From NCBI RefSeq assembly GCF_000711295.1, contig NZ_JOMJ01000003.1:1127501-1191500 (forward strand): a DNA stretch of 64,000 bases, in the 5' to 3' direction. The position numbers and the translations under genes were made by a program. Source of the DNA: Desulfohalovibrio reitneri (GTDB lineage: Bacteria > Desulfobacterota > Desulfovibrionia > Desulfovibrionales > Desulfovibrionaceae). Within the stretch, counting starts at the first letter, position 1. Each line of letters starts with the position of its first letter. Shown here in pieces: positions 7,567 to 23,001 of this stretch. The notes beneath the pieces were generated by a model. It had not been told where the DNA came from. It made no database searches and saw only the letters and a list, made by a program, of their open reading frames with translations.

Positions 7567-8337
7567 CTACTTGGACTTCCAAGGGTGCATGTAGGTCCAC
7601 AGCACCGCGCCCAGCTCCACGGGCTTGTCCGCGCCGGAGGGGTCCTTGAGGGTGTAGTCCGCGGTATTCAGGGCGGCGAAGCCCCACCAGCCCGGCTCGG
7701 GGCAGGCGAAGGAGAAGACGCCGTTCCCGTCCGCGGTGACCACCTGGGTGACGTGATATTCCGAGGGGGCTTCGAAGCGGCCCCGGTTGTACAGTTCAAC
7801 CTCCACCTCGGCGTGGGGCACGGGTTCGCCGTCCAGCAGCACCTTTCCGGTGAACACGTTGCCCGCGTAATTGCCGAAGGGCCGGGTCAAGGGCATGATC
7901 TCGGTCTTCAGCCCCAGGGGCTCGGCCCAGCCGGACTCGCCTCCGTAGGCGGGCATGATGGTCTGGGTGTAGTGGATGATGAAGGCGTCCTCGGCAGGTT
8001 CCCAATAGGGCTTGGGCTCCATGACGAAACGGTACGTGCCGGGCCGCTTGGCGCTGTACTCAGCGCGCCAGGCGGGGTGGCTCATGACCGATGCCTTCTT
8101 CAGGTCGTCCAGCAGGTCTGTGCGCTGCCCGCCCGCCTCCACGAAAAAGGCCTCGGGCTTGACCAGTTCCATGCCCACGCCCTCGAAGGGATGGGAGAAG
8201 GAAAGATCGAGTTCCACCGTGCGGCTGCCCGCCGTGAATCCGGGGTCCGAGGGGATGACCATGCCGAAGTGGGCCAGGGCGGGAACAGCCAGGGCCAGGG
8301 TGAGGGCCAGGGCCAGCGTGAAAACCGTGATGCGCAT
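7567..8337 (-). CDS. nikK: NikK-like periplasmic DUF4198 protein of nickel ECF transporter
   Basis: The 256-residue protein has a clear signal peptide (MRITVFTLALALTLALAVPALA, cut before HFGM) and a DUF4198-type beta-rich body. In deltaproteobacteria such proteins accompany NikM/L/Q/O nickel transporters and are thought to deliver metal in the periplasm. Several histidines in the mature part (HFGMVIPSD, SFSHPF, MHPWKSK) could bind metal. AAGGAG lies 6 bases before the ATG at 8337, which rules out two in-frame upstream ATGs. The gene follows nikO after a 147-bp gap that carries an inverted repeat, so it may also be transcribed on its own. The role rests on family and context. Confidence 0.82.
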   Translation of the reverse strand: MRITVFTLALALTLALAVPALAHFGMVIPSDPGFTAGSRTVELDLSFSHPFEGVGMELVKPEAFFVEAGGQRTDLLDDLKKASVMSHPAWRAEYSAKRPGTYRFVMEPKPYWEPAEDAFIIHYTQTIMPAYGGESGWAEPLGLKTEIMPLTRPFGNYAGNVFTGKVLLDGEPVPHAEVEVELYNRGRFEAPSEYHVTQVVTADGNGVFSFACPEPGWWGFAALNTADYTLKDPSGADKPVELGAVLWTYMHPWKSK

Positions 8338-8374
8338 GTCCGACTCCTTTTCCATGCTGTGTGTTCGACCACTG

Positions 8375-8401
8375 GTTACACGATTCAATTTGACGTGTCA
8401 C
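8375..8401. promoter_or_regulatory. Candidate NikR-type operator upstream of nikK
   Basis: The inverted repeat GTTACAC-N13-GTGTCAC has half-sites that match at 6 of 7 positions when one is reverse-complemented. Spacing and composition resemble the NikR sites described for Desulfovibrio-like bacteria (GTGTTAC-N13/14-GTAACAC). It lies 38 to 64 bases upstream of the nikK start. The match is by eye; the regulator is not in the window. Confidence 0.5.
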
Positions 8402-8484
8402 TATGGGGATATAAAAATTCAATCATGGCGATGCAGTCGGAAAGAGCGGCCGAAAAAACCAATCGGCGCGACCGAATGGAGTGG

Positions 8485-9219
8485 CTAGAGCGTCCCGTCG
8501 CCGTGGCTGTGCGGGTGGTCGCCCAGGGGATGCGCGTGGGGATGATGGTGCACCGCCGGGCGTTCGCGGCGGGCCAGGCGGCCTTCCTCCAGGGCGGCGT
8601 AGGTGTCCACCAGCCGGGCCAGGAAGTCGTAGTCGTGGGAGACCACCACCAGCCCGGTGTCCAGCCCGCCCAGCACCTCCAAGAGATGGTCGCGGGCGCG
8701 GGGGTCGAGGTCGTTGCTGGGTTCGTCCAGCAGCAGCAGGCGCGGCCGCATGGAGAGGACGGTGGCCAGGGCAGCCAGCTTCATCTCCCCGCCGGACAGG
8801 GTGTGGCTGAGGCGGTCGGCCAGGTGCGGCAGGCCCAACCGGTCCAGGGTCTCCTCCGCCCTTTCCCTTGCCTCTTGGGGGGGCAGGCCAAGGTTCAGCG
8901 GCCCGAAGGCCACGTCCTCCAGCACGGTGGGGCTGAAGAGCTGGTCCTCGCTGCGCTGGAAAAGCAGGTTGACCTCGCGCCGCAGCTCCCGGAAATCCTT
9001 TTCCGCGGCCATTTCCCGCCCGCGTAGCAGCACGGAGCCGGACCCGGCGCGCTTGAGGCCCACCATGAGGTGCAGCAGGGTGGTCTTGCCTGAGCCGTTG
9101 GCCCCCAGCAGCCCCAGCCGTTCGCCCTCCTCCAGGTCCAGGTCCACGCCGTCCAGCAGCAGGCCTTCGGCGCGCGGGTGGCGATAGGTCAGGGAGCGGA
9201 GTTGCAGCAGCGCGGACAT
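8485..9219 (-). CDS. nikO: ECF nickel transporter ATPase NikO (CbiO-like)
   Basis: The 244-residue ABC ATPase energises nickel (or cobalt) import with the NikQ and NikM membrane proteins. Walker A is GANGSGKTT, the Q-loop is LLFQRSEDQLFSPTV (typical of ECF ATPases), the signature is LSGGEMK and Walker B is LLLLDEPSNDLD. The last ~20 residues form a His-rich tail (HHHPHAHPLGDHPHSHGDG) absent from most CbiO proteins, which may bind metal on the cytoplasmic side. The stop codon is ten bases below the nikQ cluster of starts, consistent with one operon nikM-L-Q-O. Confidence 0.92.
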   Translation of the reverse strand: MSALLQLRSLTYRHPRAEGLLLDGVDLDLEEGERLGLLGANGSGKTTLLHLMVGLKRAGSGSVLLRGREMAAEKDFRELRREVNLLFQRSEDQLFSPTVLEDVAFGPLNLGLPPQEARERAEETLDRLGLPHLADRLSHTLSGGEMKLAALATVLSMRPRLLLLDEPSNDLDPRARDHLLEVLGGLDTGLVVVSHDYDFLARLVDTYAALEEGRLARRERPAVHHHPHAHPLGDHPHSHGDGTL

Positions 9220-9229
9220 GGGCGGTTTC

Positions 9230-9982
9230 CTAGCGGATTATCTCGACGGCGGCCAGCCCGGCCAGCAGGGCCAGCATGGCGGAGGTGAAGAGCAGGTCCG
9301 CCCCGCCCATTCCCCGACGCGGCAGAGAACGGAAGCGTCCGTCGAAGCAGCGGGCGAGCATGGCCGTCTCCAGCCGCTCGGCGCGCTCCAGCCCGCGCAC
9401 CAGCACCATGCCCACCAGGTGGGCGGTGGTGCGGTAGGTGTGGCGGTTGGTCCCGGGGGAGAATCCCCGCGCCCGGGCAGCGGTGCGCAGCCGCTCGAAC
9501 TCCCGCGCCAGGGCGTGAATCTGCGTGGCCGCGAAGACCAGCAGCAGGCAGAGCCGCCTGGGCGCGCCAAGCCCCTGCAGCGCCCGGCCGAGCAGCGGCG
9601 CGGGAATGGTGGCCAGCAGGGCGGCCATGGCCAGGATGGCCGCCGTAGCCTTGAGCCCCAGAAGCCCGGCCAGCTCCAGCCCCTGCCGGGTGGCGGTCAG
9701 CGGGCCCACGGAGAAAACGGGGTCGCCCGCCACGGAAAAGGGGGTAAAGAGCACCAGGAAGAGCACGAACGCTTCGGCCGCGGCCAACCTGGGCAGGAGC
9801 GTCCGAAGCGAGGGGCGGGAAAGAAGCAGCCAGCCAAGGGCCAGGACGCATCCGGCCAGGGCCGTGGCGCGGCTTTGGCAGAAAGCCATGAGCAGGGTGA
9901 AGGCCAAGGCGAGGACAACGCGCGCCCTGGGGTCCAGGCGGTGGATGGGGGAATCGCCCCCGCTGGCCCGGTCCTCCAGCAC
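9230..9982 (-). CDS. nikQ: ECF nickel transporter T-component NikQ (CbiQ-like)
   Basis: The 250-residue membrane protein is the energy-coupling (T) subunit linking the ATPase NikO to the substrate subunit NikM. It has several hydrophobic segments and the coupling-helix motif in the ARARGF region (LRTAARARGFSPG) plus a second, ERAERLETAMLARCFDG. It starts at a GTG immediately after the nikL TAG stop with no intergenic base. It precedes nikO. Confidence 0.92.
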   Translation of the reverse strand: MLEDRASGGDSPIHRLDPRARVVLALAFTLLMAFCQSRATALAGCVLALGWLLLSRPSLRTLLPRLAAAEAFVLFLVLFTPFSVAGDPVFSVGPLTATRQGLELAGLLGLKATAAILAMAALLATIPAPLLGRALQGLGAPRRLCLLLVFAATQIHALAREFERLRTAARARGFSPGTNRHTYRTTAHLVGMVLVRGLERAERLETAMLARCFDGRFRSLPRRGMGGADLLFTSAMLALLAGLAAVEIIR

Positions 9983-10594
9983 CTAGCCGTCCCCGCCTTT
10001 GCGGCGGGAAGCGCCGAGAACCCAGGCTCCGGCCAGCCCCACGATCCAGCCCAGGCCGCCGACCACCTCGGCCAGTCCCGGCCCGGATTCGCGGCGGGCC
10101 AGCATGTCCTTCACGGGGCGCACCTGGGCGGCGACTTCCGCGGAGATGATGCGCCGCAACTCCGCGCGGCTGACGGACATCTCCTCACCGCTGGCAGGCT
10201 CCGCGGCTTCCTCAACCTTGGGCGCGGCCGCTTCCGTTGTCTCCACCCCCATTGCCGAAGCGATCTCGGTGGCCGGGACCACCCATTCGTCCCGGTGGCC
10301 CTGCCCAGCCTCCAGCGCAACGGTCAGGTCCATGGAGCCGTCGCGGGCCTCGTCCGGCACGGGCAACACTGCCTCCCCCCTGTCGTCCGTGGCGGTTTCG
10401 GCCAGTTCCGCGCCGCTTGGTCCCAAGGCCAGCACGCGGCAGTCCTTGGCTGGACCGCCGCCAGGAAAGGTGCCGGACACGTGAATGGACTCGCCCTCCA
10501 CATAGGCGAATACGTTGACGCGGTGGGCCTGGGCTCCGGCGGCCAGAAACACGAGCAGCGCGAAAGCGAGGGGAAGGATTGGCGAACGGCGCAT
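9983..10594 (-). CDS. nikL: NikL-like accessory membrane protein of nickel transporter
   Basis: The 203-residue protein has an N-terminal signal or anchor (MRRSPILPLAFALLVFLAAG), an extracytoplasmic beta-rich region starting AHRVNVFAYVEGE, a Glu/Ala-rich stretch, and one C-terminal membrane helix (VVGGLGWIVGLAGAWVLGA). This architecture is that of NikL, the small partner of NikM in deltaproteobacterial nickel ECF systems. The ATG at 10594 is 11 bases past the nikM stop, with TGGAG as ribosome site. Longer upstream readings in this frame overlap nikM and are discarded. Confidence 0.85.
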   Translation of the reverse strand: MRRSPILPLAFALLVFLAAGAQAHRVNVFAYVEGESIHVSGTFPGGGPAKDCRVLALGPSGAELAETATDDRGEAVLPVPDEARDGSMDLTVALEAGQGHRDEWVVPATEIASAMGVETTEAAAPKVEEAAEPASGEEMSVSRAELRRIISAEVAAQVRPVKDMLARRESGPGLAEVVGGLGWIVGLAGAWVLGASRRKGGDG

Positions 10595-10605
10595 GGCGGC
10601 TCCAG

Positions 10606-11208
10606 TCAGGTGGCGGAGTGCAACAGCCCGGGCCGCACCCGGGCCAGGTAGCCCACGGCCGCGGCCGTAACCAGCCCTTCCACGGCCATGACCGGCAGGT
10701 GGGCCAGGAAGAGGGCCTTGGCGGCGGGCACGAAAGCCTCGCCGGACAGGGCCAGGGCCAGGGCGGTCAGCAAGCCGGACAGCCCAACGGCCAAAAAGCC
10801 GCAGGCGAAGGCGGCGGCGGTCCTTGCCCTCCCCTGGCGCAGCAAAAAGGGACGGAAGGCGGCGAAGCAGGCCACGGCGGGCAGGGCCATGTCCACGGCG
10901 TTGACGCCCAGCACCACCAGCCCGCCGAACTGGAACAACGCGGCCTGCAGCACCAGCGCCGCCAGGATGGCCGGAAAGGCGGCCCAGCCGAGGATGGCCC
11001 CCAGCAGGCCGTTGAGCACGAGGTGGGCGTTGGCCGGGCCGATGGGCACATGGACCAGGGAGGCGATGAAGAAGGCGGCCGTGAGCAGGGCCGTGGGCAT
11101 GATGCGCGCCTCGTCCAGCCGCCGCAGTCCCAGGGCCGTGCCGGCCACGGTCAGGCCCCAGCCTGCGGCCAGCAGGACCGGGGAGAGTACGCCTTCCGCG
11201 ATGTGCAT
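10606..11208 (-). CDS. nikM: ECF nickel transporter substrate-binding membrane protein NikM (CbiM-like)
   Basis: The 200-residue polytopic protein is the S-component that binds the metal ion. Start at ATG 11208 gives the N-terminus MHIAEGVLSP; in CbiM/NikM the first Met and His2 form part of the metal site, so the longer in-frame start at 11244 is rejected. His64-type motif HVPIGPANAHLVLNG is present. No strong ribosome site is visible. Only 57 bases separate it from the rpmA terminator, so its promoter is compact or it depends on read-through. Confidence 0.9.
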   Translation of the reverse strand: MHIAEGVLSPVLLAAGWGLTVAGTALGLRRLDEARIMPTALLTAAFFIASLVHVPIGPANAHLVLNGLLGAILGWAAFPAILAALVLQAALFQFGGLVVLGVNAVDMALPAVACFAAFRPFLLRQGRARTAAAFACGFLAVGLSGLLTALALALSGEAFVPAAKALFLAHLPVMAVEGLVTAAAVGYLARVRPGLLHSAT

Positions 11209-11264
11209 GGCTGGGGCGTAGCACACTTGCCCAAAGCTTGCCACCCCTTGCGTTCGCTCACGCG

Positions 11265-11967: not shown

Positions 11968-12087
11968 CCCTTGGCCGGTGCTTTTTTCACTCCCCCGCCT
12001 ATCCCCGCTCCCTGCCCGTTGCATCCCTCGCGTCGGCGTGTATGCTCCAAGAGTATCCAAAAAACCACTTCCAAGCCAGGAGAAGCC

Positions 12088-13224
12088 GTGACGACCAGGA
12101 CCTTCAACCTGCCGCGCGACCATCGACAGCACACCGACGTCTATTTCCTGCACGCTTCCGAGGTCCTCAAGAAAGAGGACATCAACCCGTACGTGACCAT
12201 GCAGGTCTTCATGCGCGACGGCCCCGGCCGCGCCCACGGCCTGGACGAGGCCGTGGAGATGCTCGAGGCGTATTCCAACCTCAAGGGCAACCACGGACAC
12301 GTGGACGCCCTGCCCGAAGGCTCGCCCTACCAGCCCGGCGACACCTTCATGCACATCCACGCCTATCTCCAGGACATCATCGAACTGGAAACCATGTACC
12401 TCGGCGCCATTTCCCGGGAGACCTCCTGGGCCAACGGCGGCGGGGCCATCGACTTCGGGGCCATGCTCGACGACGCCAAGGCCATCCGCGACCTTTGCCC
12501 GGACAAGACCCTCGTCTACTTCGGCGCGCGCCACTGGCACTACTCCGAGGACGACGCCGTTGCCCGCGCCCTCATCCAGGAGGCGGGCTGGGACAGCGCC
12601 TCCACCGACTTCGGCGCGCGGGCCGCCGGACAAAGCAAGGGGGTGGGCACGGTGCCGCACGCCCTGGTCCTGGCCTTCGGCTTCGAGATGGGCCCCTCCC
12701 GCGCCACGGCCGAGGCCACCGCCGCCTTCGACCGCCACATCGAGCCGGAGAGCCCGCGCATCGCCCTCATCGACACATTCGGCAAGGAAATCGACGACGC
12801 CCTGGCCACGGCGCGCGTTCTGGGAGAGAACCTGTTCGCCGTGCGCCTGGACACCGCCGGGGAGATCATCGCCCAGGGCGGCCGCCCCTCCCGCGAGGCA
12901 GAGGCGCACTACACAGCGGGACGCGGCGTGCGTACGGTTTCCGCCCGCGCCCTGCGCGACGCGTTGGACGCCGAGGGCTTTGAGGATGTGGGCATCGTGC
13001 TTTCCTCCGGCTTCGGCAACGTGGACAAGGTGCGGGCCTTTGTGGAGGAGGAGAACCGGAACGGACGGCTTTTCGAGGCCCTCGGGATAGGCGGAATATT
13101 CCCCGGCCGCCACGCCACGGCCGACGTGGTGCGCGCCGCCGACACCCACAAAGCCCGCCTCCGCCACTTCGCCAAGACGGGCCGCCACTACAAACCCAAT
13201 CCGGCAATGCGCCGGGTCTTTTAG
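12088..13224 (+). CDS. pncB: Nicotinate phosphoribosyltransferase
   Basis: The 378-residue enzyme joins nicotinate to PRPP to give nicotinate mononucleotide in NAD salvage. It resembles the shorter archaeal-type family: TDVYFLHASEVL near the N-terminus, FGARHWHY containing the probable phosphorylated His, ASTDFGARAAG, VPHALVLAF, and IALIDTFGKE in the phosphate-binding barrel. The GTG at 12088 follows CAGGAGA and is preferred to an upstream in-frame ATG at 11971, which lacks a ribosome site. The nicotinamidase gene starts 14 bases downstream, so the pair converts nicotinamide to nicotinate mononucleotide. Confidence 0.92.
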   Translation: MTTRTFNLPRDHRQHTDVYFLHASEVLKKEDINPYVTMQVFMRDGPGRAHGLDEAVEMLEAYSNLKGNHGHVDALPEGSPYQPGDTFMHIHAYLQDIIELETMYLGAISRETSWANGGGAIDFGAMLDDAKAIRDLCPDKTLVYFGARHWHYSEDDAVARALIQEAGWDSASTDFGARAAGQSKGVGTVPHALVLAFGFEMGPSRATAEATAAFDRHIEPESPRIALIDTFGKEIDDALATARVLGENLFAVRLDTAGEIIAQGGRPSREAEAHYTAGRGVRTVSARALRDALDAEGFEDVGIVLSSGFGNVDKVRAFVEEENRNGRLFEALGIGGIFPGRHATADVVRAADTHKARLRHFAKTGRHYKPNPAMRRVF

Positions 13225-13238
13225 CCAGGAGGGACACC

Positions 13239-13787
13239 ATGGCTGACAAAGCGCTCGTCATCATCGACATGCTCAACGACTTCGTCCGCGAGGACGCCCC
13301 GTTGCGCGTGCCAGGGGCGGATATCCTCGTTCCTGTCATCGACAACATCGCCCAGCGCTTCCGCGGCGAGGGCGAGAATGTCATTTTCCTGTGCGACGCC
13401 CACGACCCGGACGACCCCGAGTTCCAGGACTGGCCCGCTCACGCCGTGCGGGACACCGAGGGCGCCGAAGTGGTCGAGAGCCTGGCCGTGACCAACGAGG
13501 ACAGGGTGATCAAGAAAAAGCACATCGACATCGCCAAAGAGCCGCAGTTCTTCAAAGAGTTGGAATCGCTGAAGGTGGAGACGGTCTATGTGACCGGCGT
13601 GGCAACCGAACACTGCGTGCTCACGGCGGTGCGGGCCCTGCGGGACCAGGGATACCAGGTGCTGGTCATCACCGACGCCGTCGCCGGGGTGGATAAGGAC
13701 GAAGCCCGGAAGGCGCTGCGGGAGATGCTTGAGCTGGGCGCCTCGGAACAGGGCGCCGTGCAGACCCTCAACGAGTTCGACCACTAG
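13239..13787 (+). CDS. pncA: Nicotinamidase / isochorismatase-family hydrolase
   Basis: The 182-residue protein is an isochorismatase-fold amidase, most likely hydrolysing nicotinamide to nicotinate. The catalytic Asp is in VIIDMLNDFV, the Lys in the KKKHIDI region and the nucleophilic Cys in VATEHCVLTAV. The metal-site region reads CDAHDPDDPEF, with a second His in WPAHAV. GGAGG precedes the ATG. Substrate is inferred from the adjacent nicotinate phosphoribosyltransferase. Its TAG stop overlaps the TAG of the convergent comF. Confidence 0.88.
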   Translation: MADKALVIIDMLNDFVREDAPLRVPGADILVPVIDNIAQRFRGEGENVIFLCDAHDPDDPEFQDWPAHAVRDTEGAEVVESLAVTNEDRVIKKKHIDIAKEPQFFKELESLKVETVYVTGVATEHCVLTAVRALRDQGYQVLVITDAVAGVDKDEARKALREMLELGASEQGAVQTLNEFDH

Positions 13788-14544
13788 CCCCGCGCGCGGG
13801 CCAGCACCAGCACGTCGCACCTCTCGGCCCGGCGCGGCGCAGGGTCCGGGCGCACTCCACAAGGGTGGCGCAGGTGGTGGACACGTCGTCCACCAGCAGA
13901 ACCCGCCTGCCTCGCGTCCGTTCCGCGTCCGCCCGGAAAGCGCCCTTGAGGTTGGTCAGCCGCCTGGCCCGGGCCAGTTCCACCTGCGGGGTGGTGTGGC
14001 GCACCCGTTCGAGCAGGTCCGCCTCCAGCGGCGCGCCCAGGCGGCGGGCCACCGGCCGGGCAAGCTCCAGGCTCTGGTTGTAGCCGCGCCAGAGCAGCCG
14101 CCTGGGGTGCAGGGGCACCGGCGCCAGCACGTCCGGAGGGTGTTCCTCCCCGGCCCGGGCCAGCCAGGTTTCGGCCAGCATGCGGCCCAGTTCGCCGCCC
14201 CGTCCCAGAGCGCGGCCGAACTTGTAGGCCTTGAGCATCTCGGCCAGAAGGCCCTCGTACGCGCCGTGGAAAACCAGCCGGTCCCAGGGCGGGGGCTGGC
14301 GCAGGCAGGCCCCGCAGGGATGCGGCGGAGAGGCCGCGTCCTCGAAGGGCTCGCCGCAGGAGGGGCAGTAGCCCGACTCCCGCCTGGCGAGGTCGGCGGA
14401 GCAGGCGGGGCAAAAGCGGCCGCGCTCCGGCCTGGGGATCACCAAACCGCATCCGGGGCAGCGCACCTCCAGCAGGCCGCTGGCCGCCAGCAGCCGCCGC
14501 CCCGCGTTCCGGGCGTCCCAGAAGGCCCCGGCCAAGGCGTTCAC
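13784..14544 (-). CDS. comF: ComF-family phosphoribosyltransferase-like protein with 3' frameshift
   Basis: A zinc-ribbon N-terminus (CPGC, CPAC, CPSC, CGAC) precedes a PRTase domain with the PRPP-binding motif VLLVDDVSTTCATL; ComF proteins act in DNA uptake or metabolism of retrieved DNA. The main frame runs from GTG 14544 (overlapping the upstream stop as GTGA) but after LRRAG changes into an unrelated tail ending at 13768. A one-base shift near 13826-13832 restores the expected ending AERCDVLVLARARG and the stop at 13784. The coordinates follow the restored reading. Either a real 1-base deletion in a G/C run or a sequencing error explains it. Confidence 0.85.
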
Positions 14545-15134
14545 AACAGCCCCAGCCACCCCTTGCGCCCGTATTCGCGCAGTGCGTCCATGGCCCCGGC
14601 GTCCGCCTCCAGGTCGCCGGGCTGGTCCTTGCCGCGCAGGGCCAGCGGCTCGGCCGGGACGATGTTGAACGTCACCAGCCAGTACTTCAGCGTCAGCATC
14701 AGCCCGTCGAAGAGCTTCTCCCCGGTGGGCCGCCCGGCCACCAGGGCCACCGGGGCGGTGCGCCGGGGCAGGGAGCGCAGTTCCCCGTCCCCCTCCATCC
14801 AGCGCAGGTACCATGGCTGGGAGCGGTCCACGAAGGTCTTGGCCACACCGGGCATGTGGTAGAAGAAGATGGGCGAGGCGAAGGCCACCATGGGCGCGCG
14901 CATCAAGTCCTCATACACATCCACCACCCCGGATGAGTCCGGCAGCACGCAGCGGCCGCCCAGATCGCGGCGGCAGCCGTAGCAGCCCCGGCAGGGCATC
15001 ACGTCCAGGGAGCGCAGGTGGACCACCCGGGCCGAACCGCCCGCGCTCTCCACCCCTTCGGCCATGGCCCGCGCGGCGGCGTCGGAGTTGCCCCCGGCGC
15101 GGGGGCTGCCCGCCAGTATCAGCGCATCGGACAC
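14541..15134 (-). CDS. NAD(P)H-dependent FMN reductase / flavodoxin-fold oxidoreductase
   Basis: The 197-residue protein has the flavodoxin-fold phosphate loop GSPRAGGNSD at the N-terminus and a CRGCYGCRRD cysteine cluster at about residues 45-54, as in iron-sulfur flavoprotein and NADPH:FMN reductase relatives. It carries FASPIFFYHMPG for flavin contact. The GTG at 15134 follows AAGGAGG and sits just before the stop of the small TusA-like gene, so translation is coupled. It is part of a redox-flavoured operon. The physiological acceptor is not evident. Confidence 0.85.
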   Translation of the reverse strand: MSDALILAGSPRAGGNSDAAARAMAEGVESAGGSARVVHLRSLDVMPCRGCYGCRRDLGGRCVLPDSSGVVDVYEDLMRAPMVAFASPIFFYHMPGVAKTFVDRSQPWYLRWMEGDGELRSLPRRTAPVALVAGRPTGEKLFDGLMLTLKYWLVTFNIVPAEPLALRGKDQPGDLEADAGAMDALREYGRKGWLGLL

Positions 15135-15135
15135 C

Positions 15136-15378
15136 TCAGGCCTCCTTTTCCGCGCGGCGGAGGCGCACCAGGGAGTGCTCGCCCCGGTCCTCCACGTCCA
15201 GATTCCAGCCCGCGACCGCACCGGTGTGGTGCCGGATCTGCCCCACGGTGCGGGTGTCCACCAGCGCCTCCAGGATGTCCTGGCGGGGGAAACGGAGGTA
15301 CCAACTTACCTCCACGCCCACGCCTCAGCACCTGCCGGTCAGGTCGAGATAGAGCTTGCGACCGCCGTCCTCGCCCAT
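15136..15378 (-). CDS. TusA/SirA-like candidate selenoprotein with in-frame UGA
   Basis: Reading from the ATG at 15378 (preceded by CCAGGAG) gives RKLYLDLTGRC, then an in-frame TGA at 15327-15325, then an uninterrupted 62-codon continuation to 15136. With the TGA read as selenocysteine the protein is 80 residues, the normal TusA/SirA size. The Cys aligns with the TusA active-site Cys, and ILEALVDTRTVGQIRHHTG aligns with the second half of that fold at almost the same distance. The family CPxP motif becomes Cys-Sec-Gly-Val. A hairpin fitting a bacterial SECIS lies directly downstream. TusA-family proteins relay sulfur as persulfides. If Sec is not inserted, only a 17-residue peptide or a GTG-started 61-residue fragment (15321) would be made. 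Function is inference. Confidence 0.72.
15292..15315 (-). promoter_or_regulatory. Candidate bacterial SECIS hairpin
   Basis: On the minus strand, GGAGGTA-AGTTGG-TACCTCC forms 7 Watson-Crick pairs plus two G-U pairs at the base. The 6-base loop begins 18 bases after the TGA and has G as its second base. Stem position, loop distance and loop G all fit the known rules for SelB-recognised elements. Confidence 0.7.
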
Positions 15379-15380
15379 GG

Positions 15381-16004
15381 TCACTCCTGGAAGTAGGGGT
15401 TGTGGTTCTTCTCGTCGCCCACGGTGGTCTCGATCATGTGCCCGGCGTACACCGTGGTCTCGTCCGGCAGGGTGAATATCTTCCGCCGCACCGAGTCCTT
15501 GAGGGTCTCCAGGTCGCCGCCGGGGAAGTCCACCCGGCCGATGGAACGGTAGAAAAGCAGATCGCCCACAAAGACGCAGCCCGCGTCCGGGAAGTGGAAG
15601 CTGACGCTGCCCGTGGTGTGGCCGGGAGTGGACAGCACGTGGCAGGGAAGCCCCGCGAATTCGTACTCCCCTTCCTCGATGGGCTCGTAGTCGAACTCGT
15701 CCACCTGCGGCAGCCCCATGAAGCCGCCCCGGCCCAGCTCGGTGCGCATGAGGTACTCGTCCCCCGGCGGGGCGTAGGCCTTGGTCCCTGTGCGACTGGT
15801 CAGGGCGCTGGCGCCGTAGATGTGGTCGAAGTGCAGGTGGGTGATGAGCACCGCGTCCAGAGCCAGCTTTTCGCGGTCGAGAAAGCTGGTCAGCGGGCCG
15901 GGCTCGCCGCCCGGGTCCACGGCTACGGCGCGTCCCCCGTTGTCCAGCAGGTAGCAGTTGGTCTCCAAGGGGCCGATGGGAAAGGTGGTTACGCGCGGGC
16001 TCAT
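15381..16004 (-). CDS. Metallo-beta-lactamase-fold hydrolase (glyoxalase II-like)
   Basis: The 207-residue protein has the binuclear metal motif THLHFDH (HxHxDH) at about residues 56-62, STPGHTTGS for the next His, and VGDLLF with the bridging Asp; the last metal His is in YAGHMIETT. It resembles hydroxyacylglutathione hydrolase-type thioesterases but lacks the C-terminal helical domain. Its ATG overlaps the nitroreductase stop (ATGA), and the candidate selenoprotein starts 3 bases after its own stop. A thioester or persulfide substrate is possible but unproven. Confidence 0.9.
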   Translation of the reverse strand: MSPRVTTFPIGPLETNCYLLDNGGRAVAVDPGGEPGPLTSFLDREKLALDAVLITHLHFDHIYGASALTSRTGTKAYAPPGDEYLMRTELGRGGFMGLPQVDEFDYEPIEEGEYEFAGLPCHVLSTPGHTTGSVSFHFPDAGCVFVGDLLFYRSIGRVDFPGGDLETLKDSVRRKIFTLPDETTVYAGHMIETTVGDEKNHNPYFQE

Positions 16005-16528
16005 GCCAGGGGCTCCAGCAGCAGGTCGTCGAGGGGTTTGCGGTCGGAGGAGCCCTTCTGGTCGGGCCGCCCCACGGCGAGGAGGGCCATCATCTCGTAG
16101 CGGGCGGGGTCCAGGCCGGCGGCCTCCACCACATCCGGCTCGTGGTTGATGATCTCACCCAGCCAGACCGCGCCCAGGCCCAGGGCGTGCACGGCCAGCA
16201 GCATGTTCTGGATGCAAGCCCCGGCGCCCTGGTTGTCCTTGCGGTCGTCGTACTTGGCCTCGCGGTCCAGGTAGACGCCGATGAGCACCTTGGCCCGGCG
16301 CACGACGTGGCCGTACTTGGTCTGTTCAGCCAGGGCCTCCTGCCGCCGGTCGCCCGCCCTGACCACCAGAAAGCGCCAGGGCTGGTTGTTCAGCCCGCTG
16401 GGGGCCCAGCGGCCCGCTTCGAGCACGGTTTCGATTTCCTCGCGGGCGACGTCCTCGTCCGTGTAGGCGCGGATGCTGCGGCGCTGGTGCATGGCCTCCA
16501 GCACCGCGTCCTTCTGTTCTTCCTTCAT
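16001..16528 (-). CDS. Nitroreductase-family FMN oxidoreductase
   Basis: The 175-residue flavoenzyme has the family start HQRRSIRAY followed by APSGLNNQPWRFLVV (FMN contact) and the GAGACIQNMLLAVHALGLGAVWLG helix pair. It is at the shorter end of the nitroreductase family. The ATG at 16528 is preceded by GGAGG at good spacing. It leads the five-gene operon that also encodes a hydrolase, the candidate selenoprotein, an FMN reductase and ComF. The substrate is unknown. Confidence 0.9.
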   Translation of the reverse strand: MKEEQKDAVLEAMHQRRSIRAYTDEDVAREEIETVLEAGRWAPSGLNNQPWRFLVVRAGDRRQEALAEQTKYGHVVRRAKVLIGVYLDREAKYDDRKDNQGAGACIQNMLLAVHALGLGAVWLGEIINHEPDVVEAAGLDPARYEMMALLAVGRPDQKGSSDRKPLDDLLLEPLA

Positions 16529-21653: not shown

Positions 21654-23001
21654 ACCTTTTTGGTCCTTCCGGAATTGTCGTGGGTAGCAGCCTGAGGTAG
21701 TCCTCTGTTCCAGAGGAGACATTGCTCATGAGGGACATCGATTTCTATGCTCAGATTCTTGGCATTGACCACCCCTGGCATGTGGATGACGTGAAGCTCC
21801 AGACTGAGGCTGGGCGTGTGGATGTATGGATCGATCATGAGCCTGGCGCTCTTTGGGCTTGCCCAGAGTGCGGGCGAGAGTTGGCTTGCCGGGATCATGC
21901 CGAAGAACGGACATGGAGACATCTTGATACCTGCCAGTTCAAGACATTTCTCCATGCACGTATTCCACGGGTTAACTGTCCTGATCATGGCGTACGCCAA
22001 GCGCAAGTTCCCTGGGCGGCTCCCCATTCTCGATTCACCCTGCTCATGGAGCGCATGGCCATTGACGTAATTTCGGCCTGCTCGACCATCGAAGGCGCTC
22101 GCAAGCTGTTGCGTATTTCCTGGGATGAGACCTGGGGGATCATGGAACGAGCCGTCAAAAGAGGCTTGAGCCGCAAGGAACAGCGCAAGATCCACTACCT
22201 CGGGGTGGACGAGAAGGCTTTCCGCAAGGGACACAAGTACATGACCGTCGTCTGCGATCTGATGAGGGGCACAGTTGAGCATGTTGCTGAAGATCGCCGA
22301 ACGGCGAGCCTCGAGGCGTATTATCAAAGCCTGAGTAGCGAGCAGCTGGAAGCAGTGCGGGCCGTGAGCATGGACATGTGGCAGCCGTATTTTTCGGCCA
22401 CTATGAAGTGGATCCCTGAGGCAAGCCGGAAAATCGTCTTTGACCGTTTCCACGTCATGCAGCACGTGGGGAAAGCGGTGGACACTGTCCGGCGTCAGGA
22501 ACACAAGGCCCTGATGGCCGAAGGGGAGTCAACCCTCAAGGGCACCAGATACTTGTGGCTTTACGGCGAAAGCCGGCTTCCGGATAAGCACAAACCTCGG
22601 TTCGATGACCTCAAGCAGGCCAACCTGAAGACGGCCAAAGCCTGGGCCATGAAGGAAAGCCTGCAGGATCTATGGGGCTACATGAGCCCTGGTTGGGCAA
22701 AGAGGTTCCTGGAGAGGTGGTGCGGTTGGGCCACGCGATCCCGGATCACGCCGATGAAGAAGGTGGCCCAGACCTTGAGAGCTCACATGGACAACGTGGT
22801 AACCTTTTGCCGGCATCGGATTACCAACGCCGTGGCCGAGGGACTGAACAGCAAGATCATGGCAATCAAACGCCGAGCTTGCGGCTACAGGAACAAAGAG
22901 CACTTCAAGACGGCGATCTACTTCTTCTGTGGTGGATTGGACCTCTATCCGGCCTGCAAAACCGGAGCCACCCACTGAAATCCCGGAAGGACCACCTTTT
23001 T
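21654..23001 (+). mobile_element. ISL3-family insertion sequence with 8-bp target duplication
   Basis: The element spans 21662-22993. Its ends are imperfect inverted repeats beginning GGTCCTTCCGG (about 20 of 24 positions match). They are flanked on both sides by the identical octamer ACCTTTTT (21654-21661 and 22994-23001), the target-site length of this family. The single transposase gene is intact, so the copy is recent and probably active. Confidence 0.93.
21728..22978 (+). CDS. ISL3-family transposase
   Basis: The 416-residue transposase has an N-terminal zinc-finger-like segment (CPECGRELACRDH, then CPDHG) and the ISL3 DDE core: GVDEKAFRKGHKY, VSMDMWQPY and DRFHVMQHV, with a downstream acidic residue near NAVAEGLNSKIMAIKRRACGYRN. 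The ATG at 21728 has GAGGAG nine bases upstream; a TTG two codons earlier is too close to that site. It fills the element almost end to end. Confidence 0.95.
   Translation: MRDIDFYAQILGIDHPWHVDDVKLQTEAGRVDVWIDHEPGALWACPECGRELACRDHAEERTWRHLDTCQFKTFLHARIPRVNCPDHGVRQAQVPWAAPHSRFTLLMERMAIDVISACSTIEGARKLLRISWDETWGIMERAVKRGLSRKEQRKIHYLGVDEKAFRKGHKYMTVVCDLMRGTVEHVAEDRRTASLEAYYQSLSSEQLEAVRAVSMDMWQPYFSATMKWIPEASRKIVFDRFHVMQHVGKAVDTVRRQEHKALMAEGESTLKGTRYLWLYGESRLPDKHKPRFDDLKQANLKTAKAWAMKESLQDLWGYMSPGWAKRFLERWCGWATRSRITPMKKVAQTLRAHMDNVVTFCRHRITNAVAEGLNSKIMAIKRRACGYRNKEHFKTAIYFFCGGLDLYPACKTGATH

Follow-up and report, generated by a model that had tools for sequence, protein, structure and literature searches.

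A probable selenoprotein family with a predicted TusA-like fold in Desulfovibrionales

The DNA analysed here (the window) is a stretch of 64,000 nucleotides from Desulfohalovibrio reitneri, and the feature under study is an 80-residue frame on its minus strand, with a single internal TGA read as selenocysteine (Sec). The coordinates of this frame, of the elements within it and of its neighbours are reported in Table 1. With TGA translated as U, the product is MGEDGGRKLYLDLTGRC-U-GVGVEVSWYLRFPRQDILEALVDTRTVGQIRHHTGAVAGWNLDVEDRGEHSLVRLRRAEKEA-stop. A preliminary description, made from the sequence of the window, had proposed that an ATG with the ribosome site CCAGGAG opens a frame which, read through the TGA, gives 80 residues and ends just before a coupled gene. 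Both statements were confirmed on the minus strand, where the ribosome site lies just 5' of the ATG and the GTG of the downstream gene is found one base past the terminal TGA. The plus strand of the same interval was also considered as a possible coding strand, and was rejected because its translation is unrelated to the selenoprotein.

Table 1. Genes and sequence elements at the selenoprotein locus, in positions of the window
Feature	Coordinates	Strand	Remarks
Nitroreductase-family flavoprotein	16001..16528	-	Pfam Nitroreductase 4.1e-31; first gene of the conserved cluster
MBL-fold hydrolase, GloB / ETHE1-like group	15381..16004	-	Pfam Lactamase_B 3.2e-34; immediately upstream of the selenoprotein gene
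Ribosome-binding site CCAGGAG	15384..15390	-	Overlaps the 3' end of the upstream MBL gene
Probable selenoprotein gene	ATG 15378..15376 to terminal TGA 15138..15136	-	80 residues, Sec18
Putative Sec codon 18, in-frame TGA	15325..15327	-	Directly after Cys17, CUG motif
SECIS-like stem-loop, intragenic	15294..15313	-	GGAGGUA-AGUUGG-UACCUCC, 11 bases after the UGA
NADPH-dependent FMN reductase / flavodoxin-like	14541..15134	-	Pfam FMN_red 4.1e-14; coupled downstream, GTG 15134
ComF-like gene	13768..14553	-	By sequence resemblance; 5' boundary approximate; end of the conserved cluster

The gene is part of a recurring order, namely nitroreductase, MBL hydrolase, selenoprotein, FMN reductase and comF. 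Among the 78 loci with enough flank, the MBL gene was found upstream in 54 and the nitroreductase-family gene in 46, while downstream the FMN reductase and the ComF-like gene were present in 58 and 57 of 76 loci, respectively. The solved structures nearest to the product of the MBL gene are MBL/hydroxyacylglutathione hydrolases, and the nitroreductase-family protein matched 3e39 at 3.7e-62. The FMN reductase contains a compact CxxCxxCx7C cluster of cysteines (PCRGCYGCRRDLGGRC) that recalls iron-sulfur flavoproteins, and for this reason it may hold an Fe-S cluster. A Desulfonatronovibrio and a Desulfohalobiaceae bin have an extra gene ahead of the selenoprotein, which by eye resembles a glycosyltransferase. 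About a quarter of the distinct loci are without the flavoprotein operon. In a second group of 22 distinct loci, from Solidesulfovibrio and others, none of the operon partners was found and the gene is located elsewhere; in some of these cases it stands behind a small membrane gene that appears, by eye, GDT1/UPF0016-like (L072 4003-4275, L097 4930-5202). Genes for a cysteine desulfurase, MnmA or DsrE were not seen in the cluster. Elsewhere in the window, inspection by eye suggested a cobalt/nickel uptake cluster with CbiM-, CbiQ- and CbiO-like frames and a DUF4198-like protein (7567-11244, minus strand), and a nicotinate phosphoribosyltransferase-like gene beside an isochorismatase-like one (11971-13787, plus strand), likely an NAD salvage pair. 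An ISL3-like transposase was also recognized by eye (21722-22978, plus strand); similar translations of flanking repeats (RIHMQDYLAAGSRG / RIQMQNYFAAGSRG) are found near a cysteine paralogue of the selenoprotein located elsewhere in the genome, and copies of this element may therefore have moved neighbouring genes.

Homologues of the frame were searched for in other genomes both as proteins and by a DNA signature. A six-frame protein search of 99 genomes of the family detected them in 51, nearly all with exactly one internal TGA, and the two stop-free homologues in this search are Cys paralogues. The signature scan, carried out on genome contigs and allowing TGN at the Sec codon, returned 67 loci; translation showed 13 of them, from Bacteroidota, Helicobacter, Spirochaetia and other groups, to be chance matches, and these were discarded. 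The true homologues, which number dozens, all carry TGA, with no TGC, TGT or TGG, and belong to Desulfovibrio, Pseudodesulfovibrio, Solidesulfovibrio, Humidesulfovibrio, Halodesulfovibrio, Nitratidesulfovibrio, Fundidesulfovibrio, Desulfonatronovibrio, Desulfonatronospira and a Desulfohalobiaceae bin. In 85 distinct homologous genes, each followed through to its terminal codon, the codon at this internal position was TGA without exception, whereas their true stops were mixed (51 TGA, 22 TAG and 12 TAA), and this removes stop-codon bias as an explanation. Coding conservation among the homologues was evident on both sides of the TGA; the frame through it, which was expected to persist in related genomes, is thus conserved and unbroken in many of them. 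The family profile matched 168 of 348 Desulfovibrionales genomes, about half, a slightly generous count since a few of the matches are Cys paralogues. To look outside the order, 395 genomes of the phylum were sampled, and matches were confined to the window's own family.

The stem-loop had been described as a 7-bp hairpin beginning 11 bases after the TGA, with G as the second base of the loop AGUUGG, and it was recovered exactly so, its arms being 15313-15307 and 15300-15294. Its conservation in relatives, the other part of that proposal, was evaluated on 86 distinct sequences, and the hairpin turned out to be conserved with compensatory changes. The six consensus pairs were formed in 99.2% of the cells, against 44-74% when the partner was slid, and 37 changes on both sides were counted. 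None of 1000 column shuffles matched either the level of pairing or the number of both-side changes, while the number of pair types was not unusual (133 of 1000 shuffles); these shuffles ignore relatedness, and the sequences with either pair state span several genera. The clearest pair is that between position 1 of a Val/Ile codon and position 3 of a Tyr/His codon: A was accompanied by U in 34 cases out of 34, and G by C or U in 52 out of 52 (C 39, U 13). Control third bases of the same genes leaned in the opposite direction, with 60 C versus 28 T when accompanied by A. At another pair, G-C is replaced by C-G in three sequences. The folding energy of the hairpin in the window falls in the lowest 3% of synonymous recodings, and two of the five sequences tested in this way were unexceptional, so that folding energy is a weaker argument for a SECIS element than covariation. 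The same stem-loop encodes a nearly invariant helix motif, E-V/I-G-W-Y-L-R. The Cys sister family lacks this motif, and it is therefore possible to hypothesize that in the Sec clade the motif is partly held by the SECIS that it encodes, possibly a clean case of an RNA structure shaping a protein sequence.

The presence of selA, selB, selC and selD had been indicated as a check on this reading, and all four are in the genome: selA at E 1e-159, selB at 352.8 bits (above the cut-off), selC (tRNA-Sec) at 82.5 bits, and a selD with one in-frame TGA, which is thus itself a selenoprotein gene and has a comparable hairpin after its UGA. Of the 168 Desulfovibrionales genomes matching the family, 156 possess selA (Fisher p 3e-9, phylogeny ignored), and the remaining 12 are draft assemblies, 63-96% complete.

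Cysteine homologues, which were also to be expected if the TGA encodes Sec, do exist; they form a paralogous clade of their own, in which Cys falls precisely in the Sec column. Profile searches found stop-free relatives in 28 of the 99 genomes, one match being spurious, and the 27 paralogues share the motif D[LV]xxxxCGL[VI]P. Comparison by hhalign relates them to the Sec family over the full length (98.3% probable, E 1e-14, 77 columns), and in a tree the Sec and Cys rows split cleanly with support 100/99, on few columns and with no outgroup. A Cys form within the Sec clade itself was found neither by the signature scan nor in the tree. The paralogue of this same genome lies outside the window (G000:C3:1743738-1743980; L143/L173). 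In 15 of the 27 loci the Cys paralogue is directly behind mnmE, a gene for the modification of the tRNA wobble uridine, and sulfur from TusA reaches this tRNA position too, by way of MnmA. This location suggests that the Cys paralogue may be a TusA-like sulfur carrier, so far undescribed, that acts in tRNA modification.

We also evaluated whether the TGA could be a real stop, in which case the product would end after 17 residues and translation would restart at GTG 15321, or the gene would be decaying. This GTG is three bases past the TGA and opens a 61-residue frame, and a start at this position had been named in the preliminary description as the outcome that would speak against its own reading. 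However, the GTG is not kept as a start: in relatives the codon is GTG, GTC, GTA, CTG, CTC or ATA, while the DLRxKC motif that precedes it has been retained. The co-occurrence with selA and the Cys at the same column in the paralogues also speak against a stop. We rejected plain termination, decay and restart on the constancy of the internal TGA compared with the mixed terminal stops, and we consider them scarcely credible. The internal TGA is not a chance occurrence, given its invariance despite varying true stops, the covariation of the hairpin and the conservation of the frame on its two sides. From the sequence data, codon 18 is almost certainly decoded as Sec through the SECIS hairpin within the coding sequence.

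The preliminary description had also assigned the product to a TusA/SirA-like type. The AlphaFold model (51 rows, pLDDT 83.6) predicts for the 80 residues a TusA/SirA-type fold with the order b-a-b-a-b-b, the elements being b8-12, a20-28, b35-41, a42-52, b58-64 and b68-75. By VIA-align, in a comparison that speaks only for the families listed in it, the top match was the SirA-like 3hz7 (Z 9.7, rmsd 1.9 over 69 residues), followed by the YeeD/TsuB domain (Z 9.2 and 8.9), TusA of E. coli (Z 8.0), Smr domains (up to Z 7.8) and Alba (Z 7.2). The predicted fold shares a common IF3-like arrangement with Smr and Alba. Foldseek alone gave no E-value below 0.001 for the model. In the model Sec18 immediately precedes helix 1, and a conserved Asp lies six residues ahead of it; the spacing Asp-x5-Cys/Sec is common to the Sec family, the Cys paralogues and TusA; judging from topology and spacing, Sec would occupy, in the loop before helix 1, the place of the catalytic Cys of TusA.

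At the sequence level the relation is more distant. The Pfam TusA model (PF01206) did not match the selenoprotein in its own genome, and a Pfam search with 34 family members returned nothing coherent. With hhalign, the comparison with TusA gave 16.5% (E 0.0015) for the Sec family, the Cys region remaining outside the alignment, and 23.6% (E 0.00086) for the Cys paralogues. The CPxP motif is absent from the selenoprotein, which has C-U-G-V/L-G in its place, the Cys paralogues having C-G-L-x-P. A search of the PDB by sequence profile produced weak PIH1D1 matches only, which were taken as chance. The earlier assignment therefore stands as regards size, fold and where the redox residue lies. On the evidence of the model, the selenoprotein appears TusA-like in fold and active-site place and, since the Pfam model is silent, profile similarity is weak and CPxP is missing, it is not a member of TusA by sequence. 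We conclude that the feature is very probably a genuine selenoprotein with a TusA-like fold.

Concerning its function, Sec18 might work in a sulfur/selenium relay, a mechanism to which we would assign not quite an even chance. Sec18 would accept sulfane sulfur (or selenium) from a persulfide donor to form a Sec-bound persulfide, and the bound atom would then be passed on in the manner of TusA. Otherwise Cys17 would close a Cys-Sec selenylsulfide, releasing the atom as sulfide, and the two flavoproteins encoded in the operon, FMN reductase and nitroreductase, would reduce the selenylsulfide again. Within this superfamily, the Cys paralogues beside mnmE would be the branch with a housekeeping role in sulfur relay. 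A more complete version of this proposal, in which the protein would be the first TusA-type selenol carrier, with Sec18 carrying the sulfane sulfur or selenium, the vicinal Cys releasing it, the relay drawing on flavoproteins for electrons in these sulfate reducers and the Cys sisters serving the tRNA wobble uridine, seems to us rather unlikely as a whole.

The protein could instead be a thiol-disulfide or peroxide oxidoreductase and not a sulfur carrier, Cys17-Sec18 cycling between the selenol/thiol and the selenylsulfide with electrons from the FMN reductase or the nitroreductase. The C-terminal Gly-Cys-Sec-Gly of mammalian thioredoxin reductase is a model for such cycling. The Cys-Sec pair is invariant in the alignments, whereas the vicinal Cys is missing in 23 of the 27 Cys paralogues, and it follows that the pair was probably selected together with Sec; moreover, the gene lies between two flavoprotein genes in most genomes, and most bacterial selenoproteins are relatives of thiol oxidoreductases (PMC13188914). 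The predicted fold, however, is TusA-like and not thioredoxin-like, and the Cys paralogue is tied to mnmE, a tRNA-modification gene. We regard the oxidoreductase as a serious possibility, although not as the expected one. A dedicated selenium carrier, whose selenol would bind selenium and deliver it to SelD or another acceptor, as suggested for YedF, appears distinctly improbable. It is true that the TusA-domain protein YedF has been connected with selenium metabolism through its gene neighbours and its pattern of co-occurrence (PMC5322559, PMC2432076), and that the only PF01206 match in the genome is a 270-aa open frame of about YedF size, a separate gene with no internal stop. But the selenoprotein gene does not adjoin selD, selA or selB in this genome, and it is missing from 122 of the 278 selA-bearing Desulfovibrionales genomes, indicating that it is dispensable for Sec synthesis.

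An inventory of selenoproteins from 2026 comprises 119 families, with none listed as TusA-like (PMC13188914), and a survey of 2006 reported eight selenoproteins in D. vulgaris and seven in D. desulfuricans, none of this type (PMC1794560). The family had no match in NCBIfam (June 2026) or Pfam, and a Sec-containing TusA was not found in the open-licence literature; the family is therefore unlisted in all three collections, the inventory, Pfam and NCBIfam. With it the 119 known families would gain what seems to be their first TusA-like fold, in a protein widespread among the Desulfovibrionales, a well-studied order of sulfate reducers. It should be noted that gene callers treating TGA as a stop would cut the protein at residue 17 or place its start late. 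The Sec clade, associated with flavoproteins, and its Cys sister clade, associated with mnmE, are a natural pair for asking what a sulfur-transfer-like protein gains from selenium in a sulfide-rich cell.

Among known selenoproteins, an adjacent Cys-Sec pair (CU motif) also occurs in KCU-star/DUF466, HgcA, SaoL, SaoC and CopZ-like form 2, but these are listed in other domain families, none of them as TusA-like (PMC13188914). YedF, composed of a TusA domain and a DsrE-like domain, brings a TusA-type domain with a suspected selenium/sulfur role into Sec-using bacteria (PMC5322559); unlike the selenoprotein it has Cys in a CPxP motif and a second domain. The members of the TusA/SirA/YeeD family (PF01206) are similar to the selenoprotein in size and predicted fold, and in both the redox residue stands ahead of helix 1, six positions past a conserved Asp that closes strand 1. 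The selenoprotein differs in that Sec takes the place of Cys, a further Cys precedes it and CPxP is lacking. The Cys paralogues agree with the selenoprotein in full-length homology and in the Cys/Sec column, but differ from it by the lack of Sec and of the SECIS-coupled helix-1 motif, by a C-terminal tail of their own with an invariant Leu and by their frequent position behind mnmE.
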